Source: Nanobdellota archaeon
GTDB taxonomy: Archaea > Nanobdellota > Nanobdellia > Pacearchaeales > GW2011-AR1
Direction of reading: 5' to 3'
DNA: 55,716 bases
Assembly (NCBI GenBank): GCA_030611805.1
Contig: JAUWPB010000004.1
Coordinates: 1 to 55,716, forward strand
Shown here one piece after another: positions 5,359 through 21,788 of this stretch. The notes beneath the pieces were generated by a model. It saw only the letters and a program-made list of their open reading frames with translations. It made no database searches and was not told where the DNA came from. Both the position numbers and the translations under genes were made by a program. How positions within the stretch are numbered: the stretch's first letter is position 1; every line of letters begins with the position of its first letter.

Positions 5359-5866
5359 TGAAGTTATAGAGTAAACAATTTCCTATAATCAAAAGTCCCG
5401 ACAACGCAACAATACAGTATTTTACAAGCATATTAAAAGATTCCTCTTTATAAATGCCATGTTCAATTTTTGACCATTTCTTAGTATACCACTCGCCAAT
5501 TTTAGAAGGATTTAATTTTGTTGCTCCTCCAATTGGATCAGGGCAGGCATACACAATTCTATCAAGTCTGTTCATTCGTGAGATTGATAAACACATTAAA
5601 CAAGGTTCCCAAGTAGTATAAAGTGTAGAAACAGAAGATTTCTCTTTATTTTTGAGTGTTCTTGAAAACATATCAAGAACAATAAATTCTGCATGAGAAG
5701 ACCATTTATCTAAAGTATTCGCGCAATTCCCTCCCCTTCCAATAAGTTTTTCATCAATTGTTAAAACTGCTCCAACAGGAAGGTCTCCTCTTTGAAAAGA
5801 AATTTTTGCTTCTCCCAATGCCATTTTCATATATTTAAAATCAGATTCATTAAACATGAAACTCAA
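5297..5866 (-). CDS. Cytidine/deoxycytidylate-type nucleoside deaminase with atypical C-terminal extension
   Basis: HAEF ... PCLMC zinc motif; C-terminus overlaps the convergent gene by about 60 bp. Confidence 0.8.
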   Translation of the reverse strand: MSFMFNESDFKYMKMALGEAKISFQRGDLPVGAVLTIDEKLIGRGGNCANTLDKWSSHAEFIVLDMFSRTLKNKEKSSVSTLYTTWEPCLMCLSISRMNRLDRIVYACPDPIGGATKLNPSKIGEWYTKKWSKIEHGIYKEESFNMLVKYCIVALSGLLIIGNCLLYNFIKVGEDNIYLHGLSHTHFPV

Positions 5867-5918
5867 ATAAGAAAATCATATAAAAAGATTATTAAACTAA
5901 AATATCTATTTTAAAAAT

Positions 5919-6194
5919 ATGGTAAAAATTGACAAAGAAAAATGCATTGGATTATGTGCTTCTGTTTGTGGAGAAGTTTTTGAAATGGCTGACAATGGAA
6001 AGGCAAAAATCAAAGCCCAAAAAAATATACCTTGTGTAAAAGAAGCAATTGATAGTTGTCCTGTTCTGGAAATATTATGGGGGGAAGGTGCAAACCTATT
6101 AAAATATATAAAAAATACAAATGCAATTAATACAACTGCGCCAATTAAAATCCATAATACTAATATGAACAAACTAAATAAAATATGTTTATAA
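5919..6194 (+). pseudogene. Chimeric ferredoxin fragment (fdx 5' part + ppsA fragment + antisense lemA 5' end)
   Basis: MVKIDKEKCIGLCASVCGEVFEMADNGKAKIKAQKN... matches the intact ferredoxin at 7085, then WGEGANL (ppsA VGGKGANL), then reverse complement of lemA N-terminus. Confidence 0.85.
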
Positions 6195-6196
6195 AT

Positions 6197-7003
6197 TTAT
6201 GGAACAAATTCCGGGAACTCCAAAAAAGACCTGTTTAATTTTTTAAGTTTTCTATTTAAAAAAATTTTTCCAAAAAACACTTTTTCTTCTAACTTGTTTT
6301 CAACATTTCTTTTTTCTTGTAAAAGGTCAAGGATTTTTTCTACTTGTTGATTCCAGGAAGAATATTTTTTATAAAAATCTTCAGAACTTAAATTAAGAAA
6401 AGTTTGTTTCATAAAATAAAGTTTTCTGGTTTGGAAATGAATCTGCCTAACCAATAGAAATTCATAGTCTGTTAGTTGGCATTGTTTATCACTATATTTT
6501 GTTAAATGTTTCCTTGCTTTTTCTAATTCATTTTGTTCAAGTAAATTATTTATTTGTTTTATATCTTTAATTACTGAATCAGAGATAGACATATGGCTTC
6601 TCCCTTTTTCTGCATCCTGGATTCTTTTTATTATTTCAGCAGAACCCCCTGATTCTGATTTAGATAGAAAATATCTTGATAAATCAGTTAAATTTTCAAA
6701 ATAATTTGGAATATTTTCTCTAATAATTGTATCTGATAAGTCAGAAAGATATTTTCTTCCCATATTATCTCCTTTTTTTCTTTCTAAATTTTCAATATCC
6801 GGGATTATAATTTTAACAAAAAGATTTTTGCCAATTTCATTAGAAACATCAATCCCATAAGATGTTCTGGAAAGATTAAACCAATCTCTAAAAGATTTTG
6901 AAGAAGAAATTTTATCGTTATAATTAAACGATTTTGGAAATTTGGATGAAAGAATTTCAATAACTTCTTTTTGAAAAGGATTAAAATTTAACTTATTAAT
7001 CAT
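6197..7003 (-). CDS. Hypothetical protein
   Basis: 268-aa ORF, no recognised domain; lies between the two ferredoxin copies. Confidence 0.6.
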   Translation of the reverse strand: MINKLNFNPFQKEVIEILSSKFPKSFNYNDKISSSKSFRDWFNLSRTSYGIDVSNEIGKNLFVKIIIPDIENLERKKGDNMGRKYLSDLSDTIIRENIPNYFENLTDLSRYFLSKSESGGSAEIIKRIQDAEKGRSHMSISDSVIKDIKQINNLLEQNELEKARKHLTKYSDKQCQLTDYEFLLVRQIHFQTRKLYFMKQTFLNLSSEDFYKKYSSWNQQVEKILDLLQEKRNVENKLEEKVFFGKIFLNRKLKKLNRSFLEFPEFVP

Positions 7004-16489: not shown

Positions 16490-18004
16490 ATGGAAATAAA
16501 AAAACTAATAGAATCTCTCAGCCCAAATGAAGTAAAAATTCTCCCGCATTTAGAAGAAAACAACATTATAGAAATCTGCAAAAAGTCAAACTTAGATAAA
16601 GTTTCTGTCTTAAGATCTTTAGAATATTTGCAAAATAAAAAAATAGTGCGGCTCTCTTCTGAAAAAAAGAAAATAGTTGAAATAGGAGTTAATGGAGCAT
16701 TGTATCGAAAAAAAGGTCTTCCAGAGAGGAGACTTTTGAATCTTTTGGACGAAAAAAGAATTGTGGAATTTAAAGAAGCCCAAAAAGAAAGTAATTTGTC
16801 TGATGATGAATTTAAAGTATCTATTGGAGTATTAAAGAAAAAAGCCATGATTGAATTGAAAAATAGGAAGATAATTTTTAGTGCGAACAAAGAAGAGATG
16901 TCCAAAAAAACTCTTGAAGAATCTTTTATTGAACTTCTTCCCTTAGAATATGATGTTTTATCTCCTGAACAGCTTTACGCATTAAAATCGCTGCAAAGTA
17001 GAAAAGACATAATTCAAATTAGAGAAGAAAAAACAATCAATATTGAAATTACTGATTTAGGTAAAAAAATAATTGATTCTAAAATAAAAACCCAAAATTT
17101 AATTGAGCAGATAACTCCTGAAATTTTAAAAAAAGATTCTCAATGGAAAGGAAAAAAATTCAGACGATATGACATTACTTCGTCTGTTCCGGCAATCAGC
17201 GGGGGGAAAAGGCATTTTGTTAATCAGGCAATAGATTATGGGAGAAAGATTTGGACAGAAATGGGATTTAAAGAAATGACAGGCAATTTTGTTCAGAGTT
17301 CTTTTTGGAATTTTGACGCATTGTTTACTGCACAAGACCATCCGGTTAGAGAAATTCATGATACATTTTTTATAAACAAAAAAGTTGAACTTCCGGATAA
17401 GAAGATTGTAGAAGCTGTAAAAAAATCGCACGAAAAGGGTATAACTGGGAGTAAAGGATGGAGATATGATTGGGACAAAGAAGAAGCTAAACGTTTAGTT
17501 TTAAGGACGCATACGACCTGTTTGTCTGCTCAAACTCTTTCAAAATTAAAACCTAAAGATTTGCCTGCTAAGTTTTTTGCAATTGGAGCGAATTTTAGAA
17601 ATGAAACAATTGACTGGAACCACGGATTTGAACTTTTGCAAACAGAAGGAATCGTTGTTGATCCAAATGCAAACTTTAGACACTTATTGGGTTATTTGAA
17701 ACAGTTTGCTAAGAAAATGGGTTTTGAAAAGATTCGATTCAGACCAGCATATTTTCCATATACAGAACCTTCTGTTGAAGGAGATGTCTGGAATGAAGAA
17801 AGAAAAGAATGGGTTGAATATATTGCAGCAGGGATTTTTAGACCTGAAGTAACAGAACCTTTGCTCGGAAAACCAATACCTGTTCTTGCATGGGGTCCGG
17901 GATTTGGAAGAATGATAATGAATTTATTTGATGTAAAGGATATTAGAGAATTAAACAAAAATGATTTAACTAAATTAAGAAAAATGAAATTTTTAATGAA
18001 ATAA
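16490..18004 (+). CDS. pheS: Phenylalanyl-tRNA synthetase alpha subunit
   Basis: HPVREIHDTFF, RTHTTCLSAQ, WVEYIAAGIFRPEV motifs. Confidence 0.95.
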   Translation: MEIKKLIESLSPNEVKILPHLEENNIIEICKKSNLDKVSVLRSLEYLQNKKIVRLSSEKKKIVEIGVNGALYRKKGLPERRLLNLLDEKRIVEFKEAQKESNLSDDEFKVSIGVLKKKAMIELKNRKIIFSANKEEMSKKTLEESFIELLPLEYDVLSPEQLYALKSLQSRKDIIQIREEKTINIEITDLGKKIIDSKIKTQNLIEQITPEILKKDSQWKGKKFRRYDITSSVPAISGGKRHFVNQAIDYGRKIWTEMGFKEMTGNFVQSSFWNFDALFTAQDHPVREIHDTFFINKKVELPDKKIVEAVKKSHEKGITGSKGWRYDWDKEEAKRLVLRTHTTCLSAQTLSKLKPKDLPAKFFAIGANFRNETIDWNHGFELLQTEGIVVDPNANFRHLLGYLKQFAKKMGFEKIRFRPAYFPYTEPSVEGDVWNEERKEWVEYIAAGIFRPEVTEPLLGKPIPVLAWGPGFGRMIMNLFDVKDIRELNKNDLTKLRKMKFLMK

Positions 18005-18005
18005 A

Positions 18006-18449
18006 ATGGCAAACATAAAATTTTCAAGAAAAATATTTGAAAAAGATATTATTAAAATAGGGACTACAAGTTTTGTTGAAGAAGGAAAAGAATATTTTAC
18101 AGAATTTAAGATTACTCCAAAAACTAAAAAGTATCTTGAAAATGAAAGAATCTCTTTGGCGTGTTTATTACCAGAAGCATGGGAATGGTATGAAGTGATA
18201 CTTTTTGACTTAATAGACGAAGACGTCGACGGCATTCCAGATAAAAAGTTTGGAAATAAATTTGAAGTTATATATTATGGGATAATTGAATCTAGAAATT
18301 ACACTGTAGAAGACATAATCGAGAAGGGTTTCGAAGAAGATATAAAAAAGTTGAAAGAAAAATCAATTTTAGAATCAGAAATGGAAGTAAAAAGTGTAAA
18401 AAACAAAGATAAAGAATTTTCAGTTAAATATATATTAATTAAAAAATAA
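18006..18449 (+). CDS. Hypothetical protein whose first 13 codons duplicate the pheT start
   Basis: MANIKFSRKIFEK identical to PheT N-terminus, rest unrelated. Confidence 0.6.
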   Translation: MANIKFSRKIFEKDIIKIGTTSFVEEGKEYFTEFKITPKTKKYLENERISLACLLPEAWEWYEVILFDLIDEDVDGIPDKKFGNKFEVIYYGIIESRNYTVEDIIEKGFEEDIKKLKEKSILESEMEVKSVKNKDKEFSVKYILIKK

Positions 18450-18450
18450 A

Positions 18451-18615
18451 ATGAAACAATCAATTAAATTAAATAATTCGTTTAACTTTCTGCACGCGAT
18501 TTTCAGCGGAGGCAATTTAAAAAATCGCCCAACCGCAATGGAAGGGAAGGTTACGCGAAGGAAAGCAAATCAAAAGATTTGCATGTTTCCCGACGAAACT
18601 TGGGAAAAACCGTAG
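18451..18615 (+). CDS. Possible 54-aa ORF, locally GC-richer than its surroundings (not in ORF track)
   Basis: MKQSIKLNNSFNFLHAIFSGGNLKNRPTAMEGKVTRRKANQKICMFPDETWEKP*. Confidence 0.4.
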   Translation: MKQSIKLNNSFNFLHAIFSGGNLKNRPTAMEGKVTRRKANQKICMFPDETWEKP

Positions 18616-18625
18616 GTGTCCTCGC

Positions 18626-20272
18626 ATGGCTAACATAAAATTTTCAAGAAAAATATTTGAAAAAGAAGTAGGAAAACTTGATGAGAAAATGCAGAATCGG
18701 ATTGCCATGTTTGGAACTACTTTGGAGAGTTTTAATGACAAGGAAATGGAACTTGAAATAAATCCAGATCGTCCTGATATTATTTCTTATCAGGGATTCA
18801 AAAGGTCTTTCCTTGCTTTTTTAGGGGAAAAAACAGGATTGAAAAAATATAAAATAAACAAACCAGAAAAAAATTACAAGGTAATTATAGATTCTTCTGT
18901 AAAGAATATCCGTCCTTATACTGCTTGCGCAATTGTCAAAGGATTAAGATTTAATGATGAAAAAATAAAAGAACTGGTTGAGATACAGGAAAAATTGCAT
19001 TTTACTATAGGAAGAAAAAGAAAAAAGCTTGCGATAGGGATTTATCCTTTGGAAAAAATTAAACTGCCAATAACTTTCAAGGCATTAGAGCCAGATAAAA
19101 TAAAGTTTATTCCTTTGGAATCAGAAAAGGAAATGTCCGGGCTTCAAATTCTTCAAAGACATCCTGCAGGAAGAGATTATGCCCATCTTTTAGCAGGGAA
19201 AGAAAAATTTCCGATATTTACTGATGCGGATAATAATATTTTAAGCATGCCTCCAATAATCAACTCTCAATTAACAGGAAAGATAACAGAAAAAACAAAA
19301 GATGTTTTCATAGAATGTTCTGGTTTTGATTTTGAAATTTTAAAAAAATGTCTCAACATAATCGTAACAAGTTTAGCAGATATGGGAGGGAATATTTATC
19401 AAATGGAATTAAAATATAAGAGAAAACAAATCACCCCGGATTTAACTCCGGAGAAAGCAAAAATATCTTTAGAAAATACAAACAAACTTTTGGGATTGAA
19501 TCTTAAAGAGAAAGAACTTAAACAATTAATCAAAAAGATGGGGCATGATTATAATAAAAGTTTTGTTGAAATTCCTGCATGGCGGACAGATATTCTGCAT
19601 GAGGTTGATTTAATTGAAGATGTTGCAATTGCTTATGGTTATGAAAACTTTGTTCCTGAAATTCCGGAGATAGCGACCATAGGACAGGAAGATACAAAAG
19701 AAATAATCAAAAGAAAACTTTCAGATATTTTTACCGGACTTGACATGCTGGAAGTTTCAAATTATCATTTAACAATTAAAAAAGATCAGTTTACAAAAAT
19801 GGGAGTTCAGGAAAAGCAAGAAAAGAACTTTGTGGAATTAGAAGAATCAAAAACAAATTATACAATTTTAAGAAAAGACATTGTACATTATTTGTTGAAA
19901 GTTTTTTCAGAGAATATAGATTCAGAATATCCTCAGGCGATTTTTGAGACAGGAAAAGTTTTTGTGTTGGAAAATGAAATACTTGAAAAAGAAAATCTTG
20001 CAGCAGCGATTGCTCCTGGAAACTTTACACAGGCAAAACAAGTTCTTGAATATTTATTTAGGATGATTGATATAAAAATAAGTTTGAAAGAACCAAAAGA
20101 ATGCCCTTTGCATTTTATTGAAGGCAGAGTTGCAGAGATAATTTTAAAAAATAAATCAATCGGATTTATTGGAGAGGTTCACCCTAAGATTTTAAAGAAC
20201 TGGAAAATAAAAATGCCTGTTGCATTGTTTGAGATTAATCTTGAAGAAGTTTTTGAGGCGTTGAAAGAGTAG
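18626..20272 (+). CDS. pheT: Phenylalanyl-tRNA synthetase beta subunit
   Basis: ELEINPDRPDIISYQGFKRSFLAF, WRTDILHEVDLIEDVAIAYGYENFVPE. Confidence 0.95.
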   Translation: MANIKFSRKIFEKEVGKLDEKMQNRIAMFGTTLESFNDKEMELEINPDRPDIISYQGFKRSFLAFLGEKTGLKKYKINKPEKNYKVIIDSSVKNIRPYTACAIVKGLRFNDEKIKELVEIQEKLHFTIGRKRKKLAIGIYPLEKIKLPITFKALEPDKIKFIPLESEKEMSGLQILQRHPAGRDYAHLLAGKEKFPIFTDADNNILSMPPIINSQLTGKITEKTKDVFIECSGFDFEILKKCLNIIVTSLADMGGNIYQMELKYKRKQITPDLTPEKAKISLENTNKLLGLNLKEKELKQLIKKMGHDYNKSFVEIPAWRTDILHEVDLIEDVAIAYGYENFVPEIPEIATIGQEDTKEIIKRKLSDIFTGLDMLEVSNYHLTIKKDQFTKMGVQEKQEKNFVELEESKTNYTILRKDIVHYLLKVFSENIDSEYPQAIFETGKVFVLENEILEKENLAAAIAPGNFTQAKQVLEYLFRMIDIKISLKEPKECPLHFIEGRVAEIILKNKSIGFIGEVHPKILKNWKIKMPVALFEINLEEVFEALKE

Positions 20273-20305
20273 GAGATTGGAATCAGAAAAAATAAAACTA
20301 AAGAA

Positions 20306-20935
20306 TTACTTGCCTACATAACCCTTAGCAATTCTTTCCACTAAAGAAATTTTATTGTCAGGTTCTCTTAATCCTTCTCCTAATTTTAGAGACATCTCCT
20401 GAATTTTATAATCATCTGTTTTTAATCTTTCAAGATAATCATCTAAGTTTAAGGAACTATTATGCATAAAACCAACTAATGAAATTTCTGAATTAGGTAA
20501 CTTGTATTCAAATACAATGTTTGGAAAATCGTGAAAACTTAATTGGTATCTATCACGATTATTTGGAACAACAATTAAAGGAAAATTCCACTTACTTTGT
20601 TTACTCTTTTTGGCATAAAGAATTCTTTTTTCAGGGCTAACAGATTGCTCAAAAATATTACTAATTTCATCTTCAAATTCTTTAATTGATCTTTGAAAAC
20701 TATCTATTTCAAAATCATTTGAGATATAATTAATTCCAAAATCATTTTTTAAAATTTCTTTATCTTTAATTGATACTTTCTGACAAGTGAAAAGATTATA
20801 TTCCTCTGTTCCTTGTAAAAGAACAGCATGGTCATCAATTTCAGATTGTGCAATCAAATTACCACAAAGCCCATTAGTTTTAGAATTTCTCCCTTTGAAT
20901 TCTTTTAAGATTCCAGTAATTTTATACTCGGTCAT
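20306..20935 (-). CDS. Hypothetical protein inserted between two pheT 3' ends
   Basis: 209-aa ORF, no recognised domain. Confidence 0.6.
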   Translation of the reverse strand: MTEYKITGILKEFKGRNSKTNGLCGNLIAQSEIDDHAVLLQGTEEYNLFTCQKVSIKDKEILKNDFGINYISNDFEIDSFQRSIKEFEDEISNIFEQSVSPEKRILYAKKSKQSKWNFPLIVVPNNRDRYQLSFHDFPNIVFEYKLPNSEISLVGFMHNSSLNLDDYLERLKTDDYKIQEMSLKLGEGLREPDNKISLVERIAKGYVGK

Positions 20936-20990
20936 GATAATAAAGTTGGAATATCATTTATAAACCTTTCTTTTATGATACTACTATAAA

Positions 20991-21029
20991 ATTAATTTGG
21001 AAGAAGTTTTTAGGGTGTTGGAAAATTAA
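20991..21029 (+). pseudogene. Second, diverged copy of the pheT 3' end
   Basis: Encodes INLEEVFRVLEN* versus PheT INLEEVFEALKE*; about 30/39 nt identical, same length. Confidence 0.75.
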
Positions 21030-21262
21030 ATTGTAAATGGTTCATTAAGAACTTCATAAAAACTATCCATTTCTGGAGGTGTTGCTCTACGTGAATAAAA
21101 TCTCCCACATTCTGCGCAATAACAATGTGCCTTAGTTTGAAAATGATAAATGAAAATTGATTGAACTTCTTCTCCAAGATGCCCTTTCTTAGCACATGCT
21201 TCTTGTTTTTGAGCGATTTTATTCAAACGATTCATTAAATTTTCAAATTTAGATTCATCCAT
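21026..21262 (-). CDS. Hypothetical CxxC protein
   Basis: 78-aa ORF with CYCAECG. Confidence 0.5.
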   Translation of the reverse strand: MDESKFENLMNRLNKIAQKQEACAKKGHLGEEVQSIFIYHFQTKAHCYCAECGRFYSRRATPPEMDSFYEVLNEPFTI

Positions 21263-21302: not shown

Positions 21303-21788
21303 CTATCCAAAATAACCTTTACCATTCACTTCAACTTTATTTCCTAAATTATTTTTCATCACATCAAGAACATCCAGCACATCTTTTTTTATTTCCTGCC
21401 ACATCTTATAAGATTCTTTCACAAAATCTGCTTCTTTTTCTTCTTCAAAATTAATATCTAATTCAATTAATCTAATTTCTGTTTTTGATAATTGGCCATA
21501 AATATTTGTCAGCTTCTTTTTTTCTTTAATTCCAATTGATTTAATAATAGAAAATATAAACATCGGAGCATTTACTGGATTTAAAATAGCTTCAACAAAT
21601 CTCAAATAATTTGAAAATTTATCTGCCAGGAATTTTCTTATTTCCCTTATTAAAAAATCTGTTTCAATTTCTGCAACTTTTTCTATCTGAAAATCTTTGT
21701 TCAAGTCATCAAAACTTGGTAAGTCATATTTCTTCTGAATCTTTTGATAATTTTTCTTTAAATTTTCTAAATTAGATTTTTCTTTCAT
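21303..21788 (-). CDS. Hypothetical protein
   Basis: 161-aa charged ORF. Confidence 0.5.
   Translation of the reverse strand: MKEKSNLENLKKNYQKIQKKYDLPSFDDLNKDFQIEKVAEIETDFLIREIRKFLADKFSNYLRFVEAILNPVNAPMFIFSIIKSIGIKEKKKLTNIYGQLSKTEIRLIELDINFEEEKEADFVKESYKMWQEIKKDVLDVLDVMKNNLGNKVEVNGKGYFG

Follow-up and report, generated by a model that had tools for sequence, protein, structure and literature searches.

Displaced copies of pheT gene ends and their accompanying genes at the phenylalanyl-tRNA synthetase locus of Pacearchaeota

Organization of the pheST locus

The window, that is, the whole stretch of 55,716 nucleotides analyzed here, is one complete contig of a draft genome in 33 contigs, and the relatives of its pheT gene are found in Pacearchaeota/Nanoarchaeota assemblies. 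The features surrounding pheS and pheT are listed in Table 1. The 78-aa ORF was not encountered near pheT in the relatives; the second copy of the pheT 3' end overlaps the end of this convergent ORF by 4 nt.

Table 1. Features of the pheST locus in the window
Feature	Coordinates	Strand	Basis
pheS, encoding the alpha subunit of PheRS; anchors the ancestral operon on its upstream side	16490..18004	+	PF01409 E=4.4e-73
Probable old 5' end of pheT, displaced; 40 of its 41 nt identical to the present start	18006..18046	+	sequence comparison
5'-side cargo ORF, 147 aa, first 14 codons corresponding to the probable old pheT start	18006..18449	+	
Structured element immediately before the pheT ATG	18496..18625	+	GCGATTTTC..CGGAGGCAA..AAAATCGC
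pheT, PheRS beta subunit, intact, 548 aa	18626..20272	+	PF17759, PF03484, PF03483
Present 3' end of pheT, INLEEVFEALKE-stop	20234..20272	+	
3'-side cargo ORF, 209 aa, orphan	20306..20935	-	
Putative promoter for the 209-aa ORF, archaeal BRE/TATA-like box AAAGGTTTATAAA lying 22-34 nt upstream of the ATG	20957..20969	-	read from sequence
Probable displaced old 3' end of pheT, INLEEVFRVLEN-stop, 30/39	20991..21029	+	sequence comparison
78-aa ORF, paired cysteines, convergent with the displaced pheT 3' end	21026..21262	-	
161-aa conserved convergent neighbor of pheT, GYFG C-terminus	21303..21788	-	

A structured element of approximately 95 nt, longer in the window, precedes pheT in several genomes, often directly before the start codon, and in the genome of the window a second copy is found before the eL39 gene (L218, G000 C33:22263-22284 minus). 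It was recognized in the window, L218, L008, L009, L012, L056, L126 and L135. Its first stem of 8 bp, which was drawn by hand, can pair fully in every one of the eight sequences, and at six of the eight positions the base pair has changed. No Rfam family was matched at the gathering score.

Second copies of the pheT ends in the window

The sequence-only reading proposed that a second, diverged pheT 3' end lies beyond the 209-aa minus-strand ORF, and both features are present as claimed. Nucleotides 20991-21029 are identical to the last 39 nt of pheT at 30 positions, with the stop codon in register and a spacing of 757 nt from start to start. As a control for chance at the DNA level we considered 657 gene ends from the window and 20 stretches of the same genome. 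Only four ends stood out, the head of pheT at 39/40 and three with 30/40, one of which is the pheT tail of the window; the other two are real duplications, namely the tail of a HerA-like gene and the start of an apparent neighboring paralogue.

One might nevertheless suppose that an AT-rich stretch rich in lysine and glutamate codons has come to resemble the pheT tail by chance, since in a plain ungapped-type DNA local alignment the tail reaches a borderline score of 22, inside the control range (maximum 24, n=798). A test at the amino-acid level, in which the stop is kept in register and the cut-off is set at 35, gave the copy a score of 39 against 30 or less for chance matches among control ends, which places the similarity above random expectation. 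What makes this copy secure is not the DNA score alone but that its codons are in register and that it ends at the stop. Given also the copy at the other end of pheT and the recurrence in relatives described below, we regard chance resemblance as very unlikely.

The copy of the pheT head (18006-18046) differs from the present start by a single nucleotide, begins 1 nt after the pheS stop codon and is spaced 620 nt from its counterpart; the suggestion that pheT carries insertions at both ends is supported. In the 147-aa ORF the probable old pheT start runs in frame into another gene, homologues of which begin with their own ATG near the fusion joint. A search for duplicates of the pheS tail in the same interval revealed none that was convincing.

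Recurrence at pheT in relatives

The comparison set comprised 138 distinct Pacearchaeota pheT loci, giving 266 pheT ends, together with 2116 ends of other genes. Displaced copies with an amino-acid score of at least 35 were found at 8 of the 266 pheT ends (the next best scoring 24) and at 5 of the 2116 control ends, an enrichment at pheT with a Fisher p of approximately 2e-5. Tandem paralogues can account for three of these five control ends; the other two are the tails of the HerA-like gene and of the convergent neighbor in L006. The remaining control ends scored 30 or less.

Displaced heads occur in the window, L117 (identical to L013) and L088, and displaced tails in the window, L093, L038, L077 and L080. 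To these may be added, as seen at the DNA level, a tail in L117 and the case of L194, which was recognized at that level only. Scars on both sides of pheT are thus present in the window and L117. In L077, L080 and L194 the copies are spaced by 46-117 nt and enclose no cargo; at L067, L022 and other loci cassettes are present and a scar was not detectable.

Misassembly of the metagenome contig, for which one could cite the draft state of the genome (33 contigs), is extremely improbable since the repeats are only about 40 nt long and diverged, and since the same architecture appears in the independent assemblies L117, L093, L088 and L038.

Similar arrangements were seen at other genes. The tail of the HerA-like ATPase gene of the same genome (L203, G000 C7, reverse-complement coordinates 5509-6813) is duplicated, the copies reading EAPTAVKVEKKL-stop and EAPTAVNVEKKL-stop with a spacing of 128, so that displaced ends are not confined to pheT. 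In L006 the tail of the convergent 161-aa gene is apparently duplicated too (GKNYFG-stop, spacing 109), in mirror image to the pheT tail scars. Tandem ferredoxin-like genes in the window (5919-6194 and 7085 onward) share a start region, with 34 of the first 40 nt identical.

Which copy is the older

In 41 of 130 loci pheS and pheT are separated by 20 nt or less, and in the rest by inserts of up to approximately 2.5 kb. Downstream, the convergent 161-aa gene is present in 89 loci and abuts pheT (-16 to +12 nt) in about 30; where the genes around pheT are not tightly packed, inserts reach 3.6 kb. The displaced heads sit at real translation starts: in the window the pheS stop and the head read TAA-A-ATG, in L117 the head overlaps the stop of a NUDIX gene (ATGA), and in L088 it overlaps that of a preceding 144-aa ORF (GTGA).

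Because the old starts directly follow the stop of the upstream gene, and the old tails are placed toward the conserved convergent neighbor, the distal copy is most simply taken as the displaced old end, the copy within pheT being newer and having arrived with the cargo. In all cases the intact pheT adjoins the old end, in agreement with the earlier proposal of a replacement gene end. The phylogeny of the 39-nt tail which had been suggested as a check cannot decide between the copies, their mean identities to 56 relatives being 22.9 and 23.1 of 39. Target-site duplication by a transposon was also considered, and is unlikely since the heads begin at the start codon and not at a random point.

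Divergence of the copies and their joints

The sequence-only reading also suggested that the second tail had diverged as coding sequence. For the 39-nt pair of the window this cannot be said, its differences (4/2/3 by codon position) being uninformative; it does stand across the cases, where the summed differences are 36/16/38, or 29/10/32 if L194 is omitted. Second codon positions are depleted, with 10 of 71 differences (L194 omitted; binomial p approximately 0.0002). This pattern suggests that the two versions of each pheT end had evolved apart, each in its own lineage and in functional use, and were then placed side by side.

L038 is instructive in this regard. Its cargo, a gene designated vWA-like from its sequence, is 91-98% identical to a copy situated 2.3 kb away, and the joint contains a microhomology. 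This speaks for a tandem duplication of local sequence, broken within pheT and later reduced by deletion and decay, in which no incoming DNA would be required, and the short-spaced scars of L077, L080, L194 and the HerA-like gene likewise resemble small tandem duplications. Yet the non-coding flank of the vWA-like gene is 98% identical to the nearby copy whereas the two pheT tails are approximately 77% identical, 12 of their 19 differences falling at third codon positions, and for these reasons the divergence of the tails is probably older than their present proximity. Moreover, no neighboring duplicate was found for the cargo of the window, L093 or L088, and the module of L117 has relatives in other genomes. 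We therefore think it improbable that local duplication accounts for the scars.

At the scar joints with a visible cargo source we found the microhomologies CCAAAA (L038) and CAAAA (L117), that is, of 5-6 nt. The copies range in length from 36 to 84 nt and differ in their inner boundaries, with no constant attachment core.

The distances of pheT and pheS across the loci are congruent (Spearman 0.85). This agreement gives no support to the idea that the whole of pheT was replaced from a distant donor, and the donors, if any, would be close relatives or sources of ends only.

Cargo genes and the pheS-pheT interval

The cargos are varied. Between the tail copies of L093 lies a VapBC-like pair; L088 carries a ParE-like toxin gene, preceded by a 65-aa ORF which matched no family, and one further ORF; and L117 carries DUF2283 and BrnT-like ORFs plus a two-gene module. 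None of the cargo ORFs compared with Pfam, NCBIfam and PADLOC was recognized as an integrase or recombinase gene.

This bears on the idea, put forward in the sequence-only reading, of an integrative element. In the usual sense of the term the idea is not supported, given the absence of an integrase from the cassettes examined, copies of 36-84 nt and the microhomology joints of 5-6 nt. One could still imagine site-specific cassettes mobilized by a recombinase acting in trans, with the pheT ends as attachment sites and an att core which restores the gene, as in elements targeting tRNA genes or rlmH. The copies are indeed bounded by the gene end, the gene end is replaced, the cargo is small and varied and includes toxin-antitoxin genes, and the same gene is used repeatedly. 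Against this, besides the features just named, the inner boundaries of the copies are variable, both ends of pheT are used although their sequences are unrelated, and in L067 the module described next stands just before pheT with no scar. We judge such cassettes to be unlikely.

The two-gene module, designated c91-c118, consists of a gene with a weak Arc-like repressor match and an ORF to which no family was assigned (L117 4900-5536, L067 4341-4986, and in genomes G008, G088 and G164). It is possibly an undescribed toxin-antitoxin pair, and in several genomes it immediately precedes pheT. In 4 of the 12 genomes with close copies it lies between pheS and pheT, and the pheT genes there differ widely; in the remaining eight it lies elsewhere, as far as the short loci show.

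The pheS-pheT interval is an insertion hotspot in 89 of 130 loci, with varied single genes. These were named mostly from sequence motifs and include HIT, NUDIX, MazG-like, ASCH-GNAT, NYN and toxin-antitoxin-like ORFs. Many of the junctions in this interval are of the form stop-A-ATG (TAAAATGG). Upstream of pheT in L022 (G008 C18) are found, in order, c91, c118, a MazG-like ORF and an NYN-domain-like ORF, an array which looks like stacked insertions.

The 209-aa ORF

The cargo ORF on the 3' side of pheT in the window had no relatives beyond weak matches in 187 genomes of the family and 383 of the class, nor anything beyond such matches in viral contigs, phages and plasmids or in PDB, Pfam, NCBIfam, PADLOC and PHROGs. 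It is thus an orphan, and no donor locus was found for the cargo of the window. The idea that the cargo or pheT itself came from a virus or plasmid was dropped, no matches having been found.

A weak resemblance to the apical region of archaeal thermosomes extends over residues 3-93, with 16.2 bits where 5000 shuffles gave 8.9 at most, and the thermosome of the window itself gave 26.9 bits; this comparison was chosen after the fact and the likeness may serve as a lead only. A PDB search with this part of the protein did not retrieve thermosomes. A structure model from the single sequence had a mean pLDDT of 34 and yielded no usable structure. By comparison with the cargos of the other loci, the ORF would most probably be an accessory or selfish gene which travelled with the new pheT end.

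A proposed model for gene capture at pheT

We consider it probable that 20991-21029 is the former 3' end of pheT, pushed downstream by approximately 0.75 kb through the capture of DNA anchored in pheT, and that 18006-18046 is the matching 5' end. The starting points of this model are observations, namely the copies, their register, their recurrence, the enrichment at pheT, the ancestral spacing, two microhomology joints and the coding-type differences across cases.

The donor DNA, the order of events and the recombination route we infer as follows. The captured DNA would have comprised an alternative pheT end and a one-gene cargo, in the window the 209-aa ORF with its promoter. It would pair with the resident pheT by homology, and its non-homologous cargo end would join the resident gene through a microhomology of a few bases, a few dozen bases inside the gene, in the manner of homology-facilitated illegitimate recombination (HFIR). 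Alternatively, a small circle bearing the cargo and a short pheT end might integrate by a single crossover. By either route pheT would thereafter use the end that came with the cargo, while its old end would remain past the cargo as a non-functional scar. Since pheS, pheT and the convergent gene are arranged nearly without spacers, an insertion inside pheT would presumably survive only if it brought a spare end; the tight packing and the need for a spare end may explain why the scars are seen at pheT.

Several points speak against this model: a donor locus for the cargo of the window was not found; the congruent pheT and pheS distances show no sign of pheT bodies from distant donors; HFIR usually deletes resident DNA and permits long duplications, whereas all copies found here are of only 36-84 nt; L038 would require a later gene conversion between its two vWA copies; the scars of L077, L080 and L194 enclose no cargo; and the cassettes at L067, L022 and other loci have no detectable scar. 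On balance the data suggest that recombination anchored in pheT has captured new genes around it, and that these genes needed no integrase of their own. A broader proposition, that small integrase-less cassettes, often toxin-antitoxin-like, spread in Pacearchaeota by carrying a spare pheT start or end, with pheT as the landing site on both sides and arrays building up between pheS, pheT and the convergent neighbor, we put forward as a rather doubtful one.

The ways in which DPANN archaea, with their tiny genomes, gain new genes are poorly understood. Displaced gene ends are scars that can be read: they would indicate the site and the side of entry of foreign DNA, and that an essential gene can provide the homology for anchoring it. 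They make homology-anchored capture testable by comparative genomics, and they single out pheST as a hotspot at which varied cargo, toxin-antitoxin-like genes included, is inserted.

Comparison with known systems

Integrative elements of the SCC type and those which target tRNA genes restore the gene end at the point of insertion and leave a copy beyond it, using a fixed att core and a recombinase. The restored end of the target gene is shared by the cases described here; unlike these elements, neither a fixed att core nor a recombinase is seen around pheT.

In HFIR, incoming DNA pairs homologously at one end and is joined at the other through a microhomology of 3-10 bp, with inserts of about 1 kb (PMC3240628). 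The two microhomologies at the illegitimate joints of L038 and L117 fall inside this range. The deletion of resident DNA which is usual in HFIR was not encountered, the pheT ends being retained with a short duplication instead. Furthermore, HFIR is known from experiments on bacterial transformation and conjugation, whereas here the events recur at one essential archaeal gene.

There are parallels also with toxin genes. In the sequential displacement of T6SS effector genes of Vibrio cholerae a new module comes in at the end of the gene, leaving the old 3' end displaced downstream, for which HFIR was proposed (PMC5361080). In the displacement of Rhs tips the old C-terminal piece, with a fragment of the conserved core, lies downstream of the intact gene, and homologous recombination with a circular intermediate was proposed (PMC2935791). 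As in both of these, the old gene end is kept downstream of the new one in the window (20991-21029), L093, L038 and L117. The gene concerned, however, is no polymorphic toxin with an exchanged C-terminal domain but that of the phenylalanyl-tRNA synthetase beta subunit. In the V. cholerae system it is the end of a toxin gene that changes, and exchanged Rhs tips alter the protein, whereas the two pheT ends are equivalent, pheT stays a functional synthetase gene, and the cargo is unrelated to it and lies outside the gene.
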